A DNA stretch of 64,000 bases from Aporhodopirellula rubra (lineage in GTDB: Bacteria > Planctomycetota > Planctomycetia > Pirellulales > Pirellulaceae). Of this stretch, positions 10,157 through 14,986 are shown one piece after another. The DNA lies in contig NZ_JACHXU010000020.1 in assembly GCF_014192335.1 (NCBI RefSeq), forward strand, positions 1 to 64,000. Direction: 5' to 3'. The notes under the pieces were generated by a model. It was not told the origin of the DNA and ran no database searches. It was given only the letters and a program-made list of their open reading frames with translations. Within the stretch, counting starts at the first letter, position 1; each line of letters starts with the position of its first letter. The translations under genes were made by a program, and so were the position numbers.

Positions 10157-10362
10157 CGCCGAAGCTCTGGTTAGCTCAGGGCAACAACAAGTCGCTGACG
10201 CTCCGTTGGCTCAGGGCTGTAAACATCCGCTAACGCTCCGTTGGCTCAGGGCTGTAACAACCCGCTAACGCTCCGTTGGCTCAGGGCTGTAACAACCCGC
10301 TGACGCTCCGTTGGCTCAGGGCTGCAAACATCCGCTAACGCTCCGTTGGCTCAGGGCTGTGG
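10157..10362. repeat. 35-bp tandem repeat array at 3' end of leuA
   Basis: Five copies with exact 35-bp spacing start at 10193, 10228, 10263, 10298 and 10333. All share the core GCTCCGTTGGCTCAGGGCTG; copies differ mainly in CTAACG/CTGACG and in the tail (TAACAACC or AAACATC). A decayed copy lies at 10157-10192 and a fainter one at about 10121-10156. The last copy is truncated and its GGCTCAGGGCTG supplies the leuA stop codon (TCA at 10351-10353 on this strand) and its final residues. The array thus decays away from leuA. Confidence 0.92.
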
Positions 10363-11955
10363 CAGTTCGCTGTCGCCCTGAGAATTCTGCCCGGCGGCGA
10401 TTCGGTCGATCGCGTTCAGGATCGCGAGGATCGTGCTTTCGACACTATCTGTGCTAACGCCGACGCCGCGGTAGGATCGCCCTTTGTGCTCGACCTCCAC
10501 GTTCACTTCTCCGATCGCATCACGTCCGAGCGTCGCACTGCGAACCCGGAAATCTTTGCAGACCAGTTCAATGCCGGTGATTTTTTCGACCGCCCAGAAC
10601 GCCGCATCGATCGGCCCGTCGCCCTGTTCAACCTGTTCGGTGAATTCTTTGTCGCCGTGCCCGAGGGTCACGCGAACGCGAGGTGTTTGGTTTCTCGCGC
10701 TGGTGACTTCGTAGTCGAGCAGTGTCCACTGAGTCGTCGACGTGCCGCTGATTTGCTGTTGCACGAGAGCGACGATGTCACCGTCGTAGATTTCTTTCTT
10801 TTTATCAGCGAGCACTTTGAAACGATCGAAGACCGATTGCAGTTGCTCTCCGTTGAGGGTGAAGCCGAGTTGTTTGGCGCGATCGGCGAGAGCGGCCCGA
10901 CCGCTGTGTTTGCCCAAGACCAAATCCGTTTTTGAAAAACCGACTTCCTCGGGTGACATGATTTCGTAGGTGCTGCGTTCCTTCAGCATGCCGTCTTGGT
11001 GAATCCCCGATTCGTGCGCGAACGCGTTGCGGCCGACGATGGCTTTGTTTCGTTGGACGTTGATACCGGTCGTCTTGCTGACCAATCGGCTGACCGGAAC
11101 GAGGCGTTTCGAATTGATGCCGGTGGTCAGGTGGAAGTAATCCTGGCGAGTTTTGATCGCCATCACGATTTCTTCCAACGCGGCATTCCCCGCACGTTCG
11201 CCGATACCGTTGATTGTGCACTCGATCTGTCCGGCACCTCCGGCGACTGCCGCCATCGAGTTTGCAACGGCCATCCCCAAATCGTTGTGGCAGTGGGTGC
11301 TGAGGACAGCCTTGTCCATATTGGGCACGCGGTCGCACAGCATTTTGAATCGGTCAAAGACTTCGCCTGGGGTCGCATACCCGACGGTGTCGGGGACGTT
11401 GATCGTCGTGGCACCAGCGTCGATGGCGGCTTCAACGACGCGGCACAGGAAGTCATGCTCAGTGCGGCAAGCGTCTTCGGGTGAAAACTCGACATCGTCA
11501 CAGTATGACGCGGCACGTTTAACGCCGGCGATCGCCCGTTCGACGATTTCATCTGTGGTCATCCGCAATTTGAACTGCCGATGGATCGCGCTGGTGGCGA
11601 GGAACACGTGGATGCGTGCACTCGATGCGACTTTCAGTGCCTCCCACGCCCGATCGATGTCTTTGTCGTTACAGCGTGCCAAACCGCAAATCGTCGAACC
11701 GCGGACGGTTTGAGCGATTTGCCGGACGGACTCGAAATCCCCTGGCGAGGCAATCGGGAAACCTGCTTCGATCACGTCGACGCCCATGTCAGACAGCGCG
11801 GCGGCGACCTCGAGTTTCTCCGAAAGATTCATGCTCGCACCAGGCGATTGCTCGCCGTCGCGAAGCGTGGTGTCGAAGATGCGGATATGTCGCTGCGGAG
11901 ATTCGGACGTCGGTCCGGAGGATGGCTGATCCGTTACGGTCGTGGTTTCAGACAT
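10351..11955 (-). CDS. leuA: 2-isopropylmalate synthase
   Basis: Condenses acetyl-CoA with 2-ketoisovalerate, the committed step to leucine. The 534-aa protein has the HMGL-like catalytic barrel from about residue 22 (DTTLRDGEQSPGASM, holding the metal-binding Asp), STHCHNDLGMAVANS with the HxH metal ligands, and the NGIGERAGNA loop. A linker leads to the C-terminal LeuA dimer/regulatory domain at about 395-520, which binds leucine for feedback inhibition. Length matches the family. ATG 11955 is preceded by a 90-nt leader that starts after an intrinsic terminator; with the upstream Leu-rich peptide this makes an attenuator. The final residues and stop codon come from a 35-bp repeat unit. Confidence 0.97.
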   Translation of the reverse strand: MSETTTVTDQPSSGPTSESPQRHIRIFDTTLRDGEQSPGASMNLSEKLEVAAALSDMGVDVIEAGFPIASPGDFESVRQIAQTVRGSTICGLARCNDKDIDRAWEALKVASSARIHVFLATSAIHRQFKLRMTTDEIVERAIAGVKRAASYCDDVEFSPEDACRTEHDFLCRVVEAAIDAGATTINVPDTVGYATPGEVFDRFKMLCDRVPNMDKAVLSTHCHNDLGMAVANSMAAVAGGAGQIECTINGIGERAGNAALEEIVMAIKTRQDYFHLTTGINSKRLVPVSRLVSKTTGINVQRNKAIVGRNAFAHESGIHQDGMLKERSTYEIMSPEEVGFSKTDLVLGKHSGRAALADRAKQLGFTLNGEQLQSVFDRFKVLADKKKEIYDGDIVALVQQQISGTSTTQWTLLDYEVTSARNQTPRVRVTLGHGDKEFTEQVEQGDGPIDAAFWAVEKITGIELVCKDFRVRSATLGRDAIGEVNVEVEHKGRSYRGVGVSTDSVESTILAILNAIDRIAAGQNSQGDSELPQP

Positions 11956-12045: not shown

Positions 12046-12086
12046 AAAAAAAAAGCCCGAGTCGCACAGTGAAGGCGGCTCGGGCT
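12046..12086 (-). terminator. Intrinsic terminator in leuA leader (attenuator)
   Basis: Read on the - strand, AGCCCGAG (12086-12079) pairs exactly with CTCGGGCT (12061-12054); after one mismatch CGC/GCG adds three pairs, leaving a 9-nt loop, and at least eight T follow (12053-12046). It lies 91 nt before the leuA ATG and just after the Leu-rich leader peptide, with no other gene that it could be ending. The leader sequence CTCGGCCT (12170-12163) matches seven of eight bases of the 3' arm and can trap the 5' arm as an antiterminator. Confidence 0.88.
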
Positions 12087-12122
12087 AATTCGTTTTTTGG
12101 TGGTGGTCGGGAAAGCGAGGCT

Positions 12123-12206
12123 CTACGTACCCACGACGAATCGGCTCGAGCTGCCGGGAAGCAGGCCGAGGTCGAGAATAAGTCGTAGAGCTAGTCGATT
12201 TCGCAT
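12123..12206 (-). CDS. leuL: Leucine-rich leader peptide of leuA
   Basis: A 27-codon frame (ATG 12206 to TAG) upstream of the leuA terminator. Its core RLALRLILDLGLLPG has seven Leu in thirteen residues (codons 5, 7, 9, 11, 13, 15, 16), two of them the generally rare CTA. It ends 36 nt before the terminator stem. Codons 13-15 (CTC GGC CTG) contain the antiterminator arm that can pair with the terminator's 5' arm, so a ribosome stalled at the early CTA codons would leave that arm free and favour read-through into leuA. No Shine-Dalgarno is visible, and the predicted -10 box lies only six bases before the ATG, implying a leaderless transcript. The function as control peptide is inferred from layout; it is a new leuL-like case by analogy, not by similarity. 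Confidence 0.82.
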   Translation of the reverse strand: MRNRLALRLILDLGLLPGSSSRFVVGT

Positions 12207-12212
12207 GGCATC

Positions 12213-12242
12213 AAAATAAACAGTGAGTCCGGCAATGGTCAA
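12213..12242 (-). promoter_or_regulatory. Probable sigma-70 promoter of leuA leader
   Basis: On the - strand TTGACC (12242-12237) is separated by 18 bases from TATTTT (12218-12213). The -35 matches the consensus at five of six positions. The expected start point falls at or within a base or two of the leader-peptide ATG at 12206, so the transcript would be leaderless. A 16-base spacing to TTTATT is an alternative -10. Confidence 0.6.
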
Positions 12243-12398: not shown

Positions 12399-13262
12399 AT
12401 GAATCAAGCGATCGCAAAAGCGGACACACTCATCGAAGCGATGGGGTGGATCCGTCGATTCCGTGGCAAAACAACGGTGATCAAACTCGGTGGCAGTTTG
12501 TTAGAAGATCGCACCGCGATGCACCACCTGTTGCTGGACGTGATCTTTATGGAGACTGTTGGGCTGCGTCCGGTCGTGGTCCACGGCGGCGGCAAAGCGA
12601 TCACGCAAGCGATGGCCGACGCGGGAATCGTCGCACAATTCATTCGCGGTCGCCGCGTCACCGACGAACCGTCGTTGAAGGTGGTCGAGCAGGTGCTCGC
12701 CGGTGAGCTTAATGTCGAGCTGACCGAAATGATGGAGCGTCTGGGCGGGCGAGCCATGAATCTCTCGCCGCGCACGACGTGCGTGCTGCACGGGCAAAAA
12801 ATGCTCGATCCCGATGGCGAGGATCTGGGATTCGTCGGTGAAGTCACGCGGGTTGATCGCGACGTGATCGAAAGCCTCGCCTACACGGATCAGGTCCCGG
12901 TGATTCCCTCGTTGTGCTATGACGACGAAGGTCAACTCTACAACGTCAACGCGGATACTGCTGCGATGGCTGTCGCGCAGTCTCTCGGTGCCGATAAATT
13001 AGTCTTCCTGTCGGACGTTAACGGTGTCCGGCGAGATGAGTCGGACCCGAATTCGATCATCCCTGCCATGTCCGCGGCTACGTCAAGGGAACTGATCGCC
13101 AGCGGGGTGATTCGAGGTGGCATGATTCCAAAAGTAGAAGCTTGTTTGGAAACGCTCGATCGCGGCGTTCAAAAAGTGCACATCATTGATGGACGTTTGC
13201 GACATTCTCTGCTGCTCGAAATTTTCACCACCGACGGAGTCGGGACTGAGATTCACGCATGA
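12399..13262 (+). CDS. argB: Acetylglutamate kinase
   Basis: Phosphorylates N-acetylglutamate, step two of arginine synthesis. The 287-aa protein shows the amino-acid kinase fold: KLGGS at 29-33 and HGGGK at 62-66 bind ATP phosphates, [19 protein letters not shown] forms the nucleotide-site helix, and [14 protein letters not shown] carries the conserved lysine. An N-terminal helix of about 20 residues before the fold is typical of hexameric, arginine-inhibited enzymes, so arginine feedback is likely. The stop codon overlaps the next ATG (ATGA at 13259), giving a tightly coupled argB-argD-like-argF operon. The gene is divergent from leuA, sharing the 443-bp upstream region. Confidence 0.96.
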
Positions 13263-14986
13263 ACCAATCCAATCGCGGCGATCATGAGTTGGACGCACTT
13301 GCCGGCATGATCTCGCCCACCGGACGCGGAGGTGAGTTTCTCGCCGATGCGGTTTCGCAATGGGCGCATTCCTATTGGGAAAATGCGTCCGGCGGAGGCA
13401 CGGACTGGTCGGCGCGACTCGCCGAGCGATTGCGCGACGTCACCGGTCACGATGAAACGGTGATCGCGACGTGTTTGCCCGCGGGTTCACTCGAAGACCT
13501 GCTGCAATGGGCGATCGTCCTCTGCCGTCGACGACACCAATCCATCACGGTGCAATCGGACAATGCGAATTCGTCGAATGACGGTGGTGCAGCCGAATCA
13601 CGCGTGCTCTGTGCCGTTGGCAGTGATCACGGCCGAGGCGTTGTCGGCCGGATGGCGAGCGGTCGAGCCGATCTTCGCGAACCGGCGTGGCCGTTGGTGC
13701 CAGGGTTCGTGCACGCGCCACTCGATTCCTTGCATCAACGGATCGACGACAGCACCGCGATGGTGTTGATCTCGCCCGTGGATTTGCACGAACAGGTCCA
13801 ACCGATTTCACTCGAACAGTTGATCGCGATCCGTGAAGCCTGCGATCGCCATCATGCCGCGTTGGTGATCGATCATCGCAACCTTCCGCCGATGGGCGGT
13901 GGCCACTTTTGGATTCAAGACTCCATCGCCTCGGTGACGGCGGACGCGGTCATGATGTCCGCCGGGCTGAACGGCGGATGCGGTGGCGGCGTGCTGGCTC
14001 TCAACTCGGCCCTCGCTGAACAAATCCAACAACTAGAACCGGCTGATGCGAGCAGAGTGACCAGCGAGCAAGAGATGCCGCTCAGCCCTCAGGTAGCGGT
14101 TGTCGTCGACGCGACATTGCAACAATGGATGACCCTTTCGTGGCAGTCGACCGAATTGGATTCCCTCGCAACCTCCTTGGCCGAACGATTGGCTCGTCGA
14201 GAAAGTGTTCGCGATTTGCACGTGACGGGACGCTCGATCGGCATCGAACTCGACCTGCCTTCGCTACAATGGGCAGAGGTTGCCGCCGGTTTTGGACTCG
14301 CCGTTGCGACGGCGGGCGAGTTCGCAGTCCGCTTGCAACCACCACTGATCTTCGAAGCCGACGAACAATCGGAATTGCTCGATCGCATCGACATGGTTTT
14401 TGAAGCCATCGAGGAAGAAGAGCAGCGTTCGGACGAGCCTGTTGCGGAGGCTTCGCCGGAAGACTCCGAGGCATCGGAAGAAGACACACAATCCGAAGCC
14501 GAGTCCCTCGACGAAGTGGCGGACGCTCCTTCGGACATTGTGGACGATGACGAACTCGGAGACGACGAATCGGATGTCGAAGACGAAGAAGACAGCGACG
14601 AGAACCACGAAGAAGCGTTCGCGGACGATGAATCCGACAATGATGAACTCGACGAAGAAGAAATAGAAGACGAAGAACCAGAACACGACGAACTCGACGA
14701 CGAACTGGATGAGGACGAGTCGGAAAGCGACGAGTTGGAACAGAAATCGTCCAACGAACTGGAATACGAGTCCGATGGTGAAGACGAGAACGAAGAAGAT
14801 GAAGATGACGCCTCGGATGAAGATGAGTTCGAAGAAGAAGAGCAACTCGACGTAGACGAGATTGACGAAGACGAAATCGAAGACACTGACGACGATGAAG
14901 TGAAACGATCCCAATTCGAAGGTGAATTCGCCGAAAGCGAAGCCGACGATTCGGATTCGATAACCGATCCGGAGACCCAATCATGA
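13259..14986 (+). CDS. ArgD-like aminotransferase-fold protein, PLP lysine lost, acidic tail
   Basis: A 575-aa protein in the place where argD (acetylornithine aminotransferase) would sit. Residues about 20-385 follow the class-III aminotransferase pattern: [10 protein letters not shown] (121-130) matches the FHGRT.G loop, ALVIDHRN (201-208) the LIxDEVQ motif with the PLP-nitrogen Asp at D205, SAGLNGG (234-240) the AKGLGGG lysine motif, [11 protein letters not shown] (324-334) and RLQPPLIF (358-365) the C-terminal domain. The PLP lysine position is Ala235, and the glutamate and glutamine of DEVQ are His and Asn, so ordinary transamination is unlikely. Residues 384-575 are an unstructured tail with over half Asp/Glu and only two Lys and two Arg. 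Start and stop both overlap neighbours as ATGA. Role unknown; a structural or regulatory partner of ArgB/ArgF is one possibility. Confidence 0.8.

Follow-up and report, generated by a model that had tools for sequence, protein, structure and literature searches.

A conserved leucine attenuator with a probably leaderless leader peptide predicted upstream of leuA in Aporhodopirellula rubra

Comparison with related loci indicates that the region upstream of leuA in Aporhodopirellula rubra is a real, well-conserved, and classical leucine attenuator, found in a phylum for which no description of such an element was located among the open-access matches listed, and that its leader is probably leaderless. 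The region lies in the window, that is, the whole stretch of 64,000 nucleotides that was analyzed; coordinates refer to its minus strand unless marked otherwise. The element is very likely a ribosome-mediated transcription attenuator of leuA with a leaderless leader, which would respond to leucine through three competing hairpins (1:2, 2:3, and 3:4). A leader, control codons, a terminator, and a self-matching antiterminator all emerge from sequence comparison. The observation originally made at 12242–12046 on the minus strand is confirmed, with all elements at their positions. The interpretation attached to it is partly supported: the attenuator, the control by CTA codons, and the leaderless start are upheld, while the placement of the antiterminator within the control codons is not.

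The controlled gene is leuA (10351–11955), whose product, 2-isopropylmalate synthase, passes the curated cut-offs of both TIGR00973 and NF002086. Upstream of it, the expected sigma-70-like promoter is found 5' of the leader ATG (12213–12242), with TTGACC at 12242–12237, an 18-nt spacer, and TATTTT at 12218–12213, and the bases GATGCC separate the last hexamer from the leader ATG at 12206. The pattern TTGAC, spacer, TAnnnT, short gap, and ATG occurs once in the 64-kb window, against a chance expectation of 0.12. The leader peptide ORF MRNRLALRLILDLGLLPGSSSRFVVGT (12123–12206) consists of 27 codons, ends with a TAG stop (12125–12123), and has no Shine-Dalgarno match. Its seven leucines, at residues 5, 7, 9, 11, 13, 15, and 16, define the control codons 5–16 (12159–12194), and two of them, at codons 5 and 7, are encoded by CTA, as had been described. 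The folding energy of the 177-nt RNA (12206–12030) is -63.1 kcal/mol, compared with -45.7 kcal/mol (sd 4.1) for shuffled sequences (z -4.2). Elsewhere in the window, at 13259–14986 on the plus strand, a 575-aa ORF lies between argB and the ornithine carbamoyltransferase gene; its only match is an argD-like aminotransferase, far below the cut-offs, and it has a long C-terminal tail rich in Asp and Glu.

The use of CTA as a control codon is supported by its enrichment in the leaders. It is the rarest leucine codon of the leuA genes studied, as far as the loci contain these genes. In the genus of the window, CTA accounts for 27 of the 105 leucine codons of the leaders and for 6 of 446 in the corresponding leuA genes; elsewhere the shares are 139/596 and 49/2488. 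At least one CTA is present in the leaders of all 13 congeners and in 65 of the 82 others.

To define the distribution of the element, leuA loci were taken from three sources: a search of 60 related genomes, which gave 59 loci; 80 named contigs, including those of Rhodopirellula sallentina, Neorhodopirellula pilleata, Rubripirellula, Stieleria, and Roseiconus; and a phylum sample, in which 48 of 149 genomes matched at E 1e-100 or better and 28 loci were new. From these 167 loci, 12 with an identical 350-nt upstream end were removed, as was L146, which has no anchor and is the same leuA as L185, a locus that shows a leucine leader. The resulting 154 loci still include close relatives. A leader was defined as an ORF of 10–32 codons with an ATG start and at least 5 Leu in 13 residues, and a terminator as a U-tailed hairpin after the stop codon. 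The leucine-rich peptide anticipated in relatives is present at 98 of the 154 distinct loci, and 95 of these 98 also have the terminator (45/59 in the search of relatives, 44/68 in the contig search, and 6/27 in the phylum sample); the remaining 59 of the 154 do not show both features. Under the same definitions, the regions upstream of ilvB, trpE, and leuC contain an ORF in 2 of 70 cases and an ORF with a terminator in 1 of 70, a control that leaves out L216, L228, L243, L235 (trpE, split match), and L259 (leuC, contig end). On the reverse strand of the leuA upstream regions, the counts are 1/154 and 0/154. The conservation of leader and terminator at 95 loci, set against these controls, supports the proposed leucine attenuator of leuA, and many relatives in the order Pirellulales carry the same predicted switch. 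A chance origin of the layout was rejected on the basis of both controls and of the expected frequency of the promoter–ATG pattern in the window.

Leaders of other compositions were sought upstream of the control genes. No Leu/Ile/Val leader (at least 8 such residues in 12) was found before ilvB at 25 loci, second ilvB copies of three genomes being outside this count, and no leucine leader (at least 6 Leu in 12) before leuC at 24 loci, with L259 left out. The 24 trpE upstream regions (at least 3 Trp in 12; L235 left out) gave a single weak tryptophan match with a TTG start, at L215. A further 18 loci of the phylum, outside the 154 counted, were scanned for ORFs and T runs alone; this looser scan, which allowed other start codons and did not demand a terminator, showed a leucine-rich ORF in 11. 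A different leucine leader, ending in PRGAPG, was observed in four genomes of family f43 (L181–L184); the leuA anchor is 92–106 nt downstream of its stop, which is not followed by a run of 5 T. Of 18 loci scanned, 5 have a tRNA-Leu gene with anticodon TAA close to leuA (L021:519–605, L025:3946–4033, L120:4085–4171, L123:4390–4473, and L135:4081–4166).

The intrinsic terminator of the window occupies 12046–12086 and comprises a hairpin, AGCCCGAGCCGCC...GCGACTCGGGCT (12086–12054), and a tract of nine T (12054–12046). A purpose-made hairpin finder assigns it an energy of -20.0 kcal/mol. The strong terminator reported before leuA is thus recovered, 90 nt from the leuA ATG (11955) rather than 91. 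A simple terminator scan listed no site at 12086–12046, a likely consequence of the limit of 8 that it sets for the loop. In 90 of the 95 loci, the terminator lies 25–50 nt 3' of the leader stop. Within the genus (12 distinct rows), 97.0% of the helix cells pair, with zero two-sided changes. Outside the genus, 72 two-sided cells are found versus 17.9 in shuffled alignments, in a set preselected for having a hairpin, by which 3 of the 98 loci were dropped.

The start of transcription is the next element to be considered. At the canonical distance from TATTTT, transcription is predicted to start at the A of the leader ATG (12206), so that the leader of the window would probably begin at the first base of its RNA. 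In agreement with the leaderless start originally proposed, the promoter spacing is kept in all 13 congeners. A TTGAC motif 35–37 nt before the leader ATG forms a sharp peak of 28 cases in the 95 loci, made up of 13/13 congeners and 15/82 others; for adjacent ATG pairs, the distance was counted from the first ATG, as in L007, where this is the upstream ATG. Across the 95 loci, a distance of 6 or 7 nt between the end of a -10-like hexamer and the leader ATG accounts for 31 cases, whereas other positions mostly account for 1 to 5 each. A Shine-Dalgarno-like match of at least 4 bases is present in 17 of the 95 leaders. A different reading concerns the start alone and is compatible with the attenuator: transcription could begin further upstream, TTGACC and TATTTT being a chance occurrence, with attenuation acting through an ordinary 5' untranslated region. 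The predicted start is sequence-based, and 67 of the 82 loci outside the genus have no TTGAC at 35–37 nt, which favors such a start. This reading nevertheless appears unlikely, since it does not account for the -10-like peak, nor for the sharp TTGAC peak, which contrasts with 8 of 1091 comparison ATGs of the same regions having TTGAC 34–38 nt upstream. Because the close TTGAC is missing from those 67 loci, the leaderless form looks clade-bound.

If the predicted start is right, the product of termination would be a leaderless RNA, about 160 nt long, that carries the 27-codon ORF. The terminated RNA or its peptide could then act in trans as its main role, as described for rnTrpL and peTrpL of Sinorhizobium, and such dual use is among the findings given for S. 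meliloti in PMC10117765. A main role of this kind is quite improbable, as the peptides outside the genus share mainly the leucine run, with most other residues differing, and the arms are matched in cis to the terminator of the same locus. A trans role in addition to attenuation may nevertheless exist. The preferred reading remains attenuation in cis.

In the window, a register-free search identifies a left arm, GGCAGCTCGAGCCGATTCGT (segment 2, codons 18–24, 12136–12155), which pairs at 17 of 20 positions with a right arm, ACGAATTAGCCCGAGCCGCC (segment 3, 12074–12093). Segment 3 overlaps the 5' arm of the terminator, and this makes the antiterminator and the terminator mutually exclusive. The duplex has an energy of -28.9 kcal/mol, and none of 100 synonymous recodings is equally strong. 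In the alignment of the genus (13 species, 12 distinct rows), 92.6% of the antiterminator cells pair, versus 28–40% in slid registers, and the energies of the paired arms range from -26.7 to -29.4 kcal/mol across the 13 species. Compared with synonymous recoding, the mean z in the genus is -2.55, and 11 of 13 species lie below -1.64. Six cells are changed on both sides, a count that shuffles reach in 14 of 500 cases, and the covariation score is reached in 1 of 500; the number of two-sided pairs, 2, is ordinary, being matched by 329 of 500 shuffles. A C-G/U-A exchange is seen at columns 61/130 of this alignment.

The original prediction had instead placed the antiterminator within codons 13–15, where CTCGGCCT (12170–12163) would pair with AGCCCGAG of the terminator 5' arm. 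The sequence does differ from CTCGGGCT by a single base, as was said, and it pairs at 7 of 8 positions in the window and in 81.3% of the cells in the genus. However, a mismatch at one position is fixed throughout the 12 distinct congeneric leaders with no compensatory change, and the covariation analysis of this arm in congeners gives zero two-sided changes, with identical shuffles. Codons 13–15 were rejected as the antiterminator on these grounds and are highly improbable in that role, given the alternative 17-pair helix with its higher pairing and its stability in the congeners. Pairing strength, slide controls, and two-sided change all point to the arm just after the leucine run, at codons 18–24, as the better candidate. 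A place for CTCGGCCT within segment 1 is the better fit.

In the genus of the window, the ORF contains the entire antiterminator arm, and the stop codon is displaced downstream. The leader frame also runs past the arm in Stieleria tagensis and Roseiconus nitratireducens (L068 and L069); the displaced stop is consequently not limited to this genus. In 77 of the 82 loci outside it, the left arm straddles the leader stop when the search extends 60 nt to the 5' side of the stop and up to 25 nt to its 3' side; a narrower search of 14 nt on either side, which favors straddling, gives 75/82. A ribosome at the stop would therefore sit on the antiterminator in most of these loci. Their consensus is GGCCnTAGGGTT pairing with AACCCCGAGGCC, and the stop column of 62 aligned loci contains TAG in 47 and TAA in 2.

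The match between arms was further assessed by permutation, which treats loci as exchangeable and ignores kinship. Across the 95 loci, a locus's own arms give -24.7 versus -19.9 (sd 0.34) for permuted arms, and across 68 representatives from outside the genus -20.6 versus -16.5 (sd 0.37), with 0 of 20000 permutations reaching the observed value in either case. In swaps between GC-matched arms, the own arm outperforms the median at 83 of 90 loci. When the right arms are shuffled instead, the own arms reach a mean z of -1.95, and 45 of the 95 loci pass a z of -2. Synonymous recoding outside the genus gives a mean z of -0.86, with 23 of 81 loci below -1.64, and is a weak test there, the arm being partly outside the ORF. 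The fixed-register alignment A3, comprising 62 of the 82 loci outside the genus with leader and terminator, picked for variety, shows no excess of antiterminator pairing (70.2% versus 69.5% shuffled; 116/500) or covariation (51/500), and a register slid by +1 has a higher covariation score than the proposed one. Consequently, the order-wide case for the antiterminator rests on the register-free test. The null result of A3 may well stem from registers that shift around the stop codon.

The third predicted structure is a protector hairpin (1:2) that is likely to form over segment 2. According to the folds, the outer strand of segment 1, GCTCTACG (12184–12191), pairs with CGTAGAGC (12127–12120), which contains the stop codon, and the inner strand, CTCGGCCTGC (codons 13–16, 12161–12170), has segment 2 as its predicted partner. 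In the 13 congeners, the predicted folds of the leader ORF with 15 additional nt are of the 1:2 type, with energies between -25.5 and -37.8 kcal/mol. Permuted combinations of segments 1 and 2 outperform the own ones in 4 of 5000 cases in the genus and in 0 of 5000 for 80 loci outside it. Compared with synonymous recoding, the 1:2 region has a z below -1.64 in 9 of 13 species of the genus and in 25 of 81 loci outside; in 2 of the 13 congeners it shows no excess stability. The outer stem of the window pairs in 52.7% of cells and is kept in part of the genus.

Taken together, these hairpins would most likely compete so as to switch leuA on when leucine runs out. Ribosome positions, leaderless initiation, and the leucine response are what we infer in the following scheme, which uses textbook values for ribosome footprints. 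RNA polymerase would start at the leader AUG or no more than one base away from it, and a ribosome would load on the leaderless 5' end. When charged tRNA-Leu is scarce, the ribosome would stall at codons 5–11, above all at the CUA codons 5 and 7, covering segment 1. Segment 2 would then be free to pair with segment 3, destroying the terminator and allowing leuA to be transcribed. A stall at codons 15–16 would begin to cover segment 2, and the early codons, including both CTA, should therefore matter most. When leucine is plentiful, the ribosome would reach the stop codon (12125–12123) and cover the 3' part of segment 2, or the 1:2 hairpin would reform after its release. With segment 2 masked in either way, the 3:4 terminator would form and leuA would be off. 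Without any initiation, 1:2 and 3:4 would form together and lead to termination; leuA expression in starvation would therefore depend on leaderless initiation.

A T-box or riboswitch in place of a leader peptide has only a negligible probability: T-boxes do precede leuA in two proteobacteria, Geobacter and Pelobacter, according to PMC2494555, but that work lists none in its one planctomycete genome, an Rfam search of 8 kb surrounding the site gave no match with E of 1 or lower, and nine homologous loci yielded only tRNA genes at Rfam gathering thresholds. A regulator of the Rfam type was rejected accordingly.

A second conserved element was observed between the attenuator and leuA at loci outside the genus, namely at 2356–2447 of L120 and at 29 further loci of alignment A4. 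It comprises a Leu-(Leu/Val/Ala)-Leu run, in many cases with an ATG 16–19 codons upstream, and then a hairpin GCCGRCCnnnGGYCGGC. The search required YTG as the first leucine codon, a third codon of the form YTN, and a GC-rich stem without mismatches, so that the presence of these features is built in. A4 retains 30 of 36 matches; one near-copy and five sequences not resembling the motif were excluded on visual inspection. The alignment shows 23 two-sided cells versus 7.2 in shuffles, a signal that the search criteria partly impose. The criteria do not dictate that the third codon encodes Leu, as it does at all 30 loci, with no instance of TTT or TTC. With a search for the hairpin only, a similar element is found in 34 of the 95 loci. 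The core pattern occurs at 1–3 places each in 7 of 9 genomes probed, although it missed G017, which has the element, and it was not found in the genome of the window. The element is possibly a second leucine sensor. Tentatively, and with the balance of probability against it, the leuA genes of planctomycetes may share an ancient leucine attenuator that extends beyond Pirellulales, usually with the stop codon in the antiterminator. In a Rhodopirellula-type clade it would have become leaderless and would report on leucine charging as well as on the cell's capacity for leaderless initiation, and in many other Pirellulales the second element of Leu codons and a hairpin would follow it, giving two sensors in tandem.

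If the proposed attenuator is correct, classical leucine attenuation would be extended to Planctomycetota. Leaderless leaders would offer a natural assay of leaderless initiation in this phylum, and a stop codon inside the antiterminator would offer a clean case for studying ribosome occlusion.

One of the closest known systems is the enterobacterial leuL, in which a leucine-rich leader with rare CUA codons and three mutually exclusive hairpins precede a terminator before leuA. The window shares the leucine-rich CUA leader, the use of a scarce codon for leucine control, the exclusive hairpins as predicted, and the terminator before leuA. The likeness is one of layout: the window belongs to another phylum, its leader is predicted to be leaderless, without a Shine-Dalgarno match, and the next gene after leuA on the same strand matches no leu gene, unlike the enterobacterial leu operon.

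The original prediction knew of no case in planctomycetes, and no description of a leucine attenuator in Planctomycetota was found among the matches listed in open-access literature, a scope outside which the 2010 comparative attenuation study of Lopatovskaya and colleagues lies, or in the parts consulted of PMC4833913, PMC2494555, and PMC10117765. PMC4833913 counts short leader genes near gene starts in Planctomycetes among other groups, and its main text contains no word beginning with 'leu'. A leucine-rich attenuator peptide is mentioned for Staphylococcus in PMC5794164. The actinobacterial LEU element of leuA, as outlined in PMC1262725, also has a run of Leu codons upstream of the gene. 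Its base stem joins these codons to the Shine-Dalgarno box, and a conserved pseudoknot or alternative structure is described there, with classical attenuation thought unlikely. In contrast, the window has a U-tailed terminator and an antiterminator.

Planctomycete start-site data were likewise absent from the matches listed in open-access literature. The novelty claimed for the leaderless leader has to be narrowed, because leaderless attenuator leaders have been reported in Streptomyces lividans and Sinorhizobium meliloti. In S. lividans, the leucine-rich leader peptides of leuL1/leuA and leuL2/leuS are given as transcribed leaderless, like the predicted leader of the window (PMC8079986). LeuL2 is followed there by a hairpin and a U stretch, while LeuL1, the leader of leuA, is reported to be without a typical Rho-independent terminator, which the window and 95 of the 98 leader loci possess. 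The trpL attenuator of S. meliloti, rnTrpL, is described in PMC10117765 as a leaderless RNA beginning with the AUG of the leader ORF, with functions in trans; it resembles the predicted start in the window and is based on Trp, whereas the leader studied here is based on Leu.
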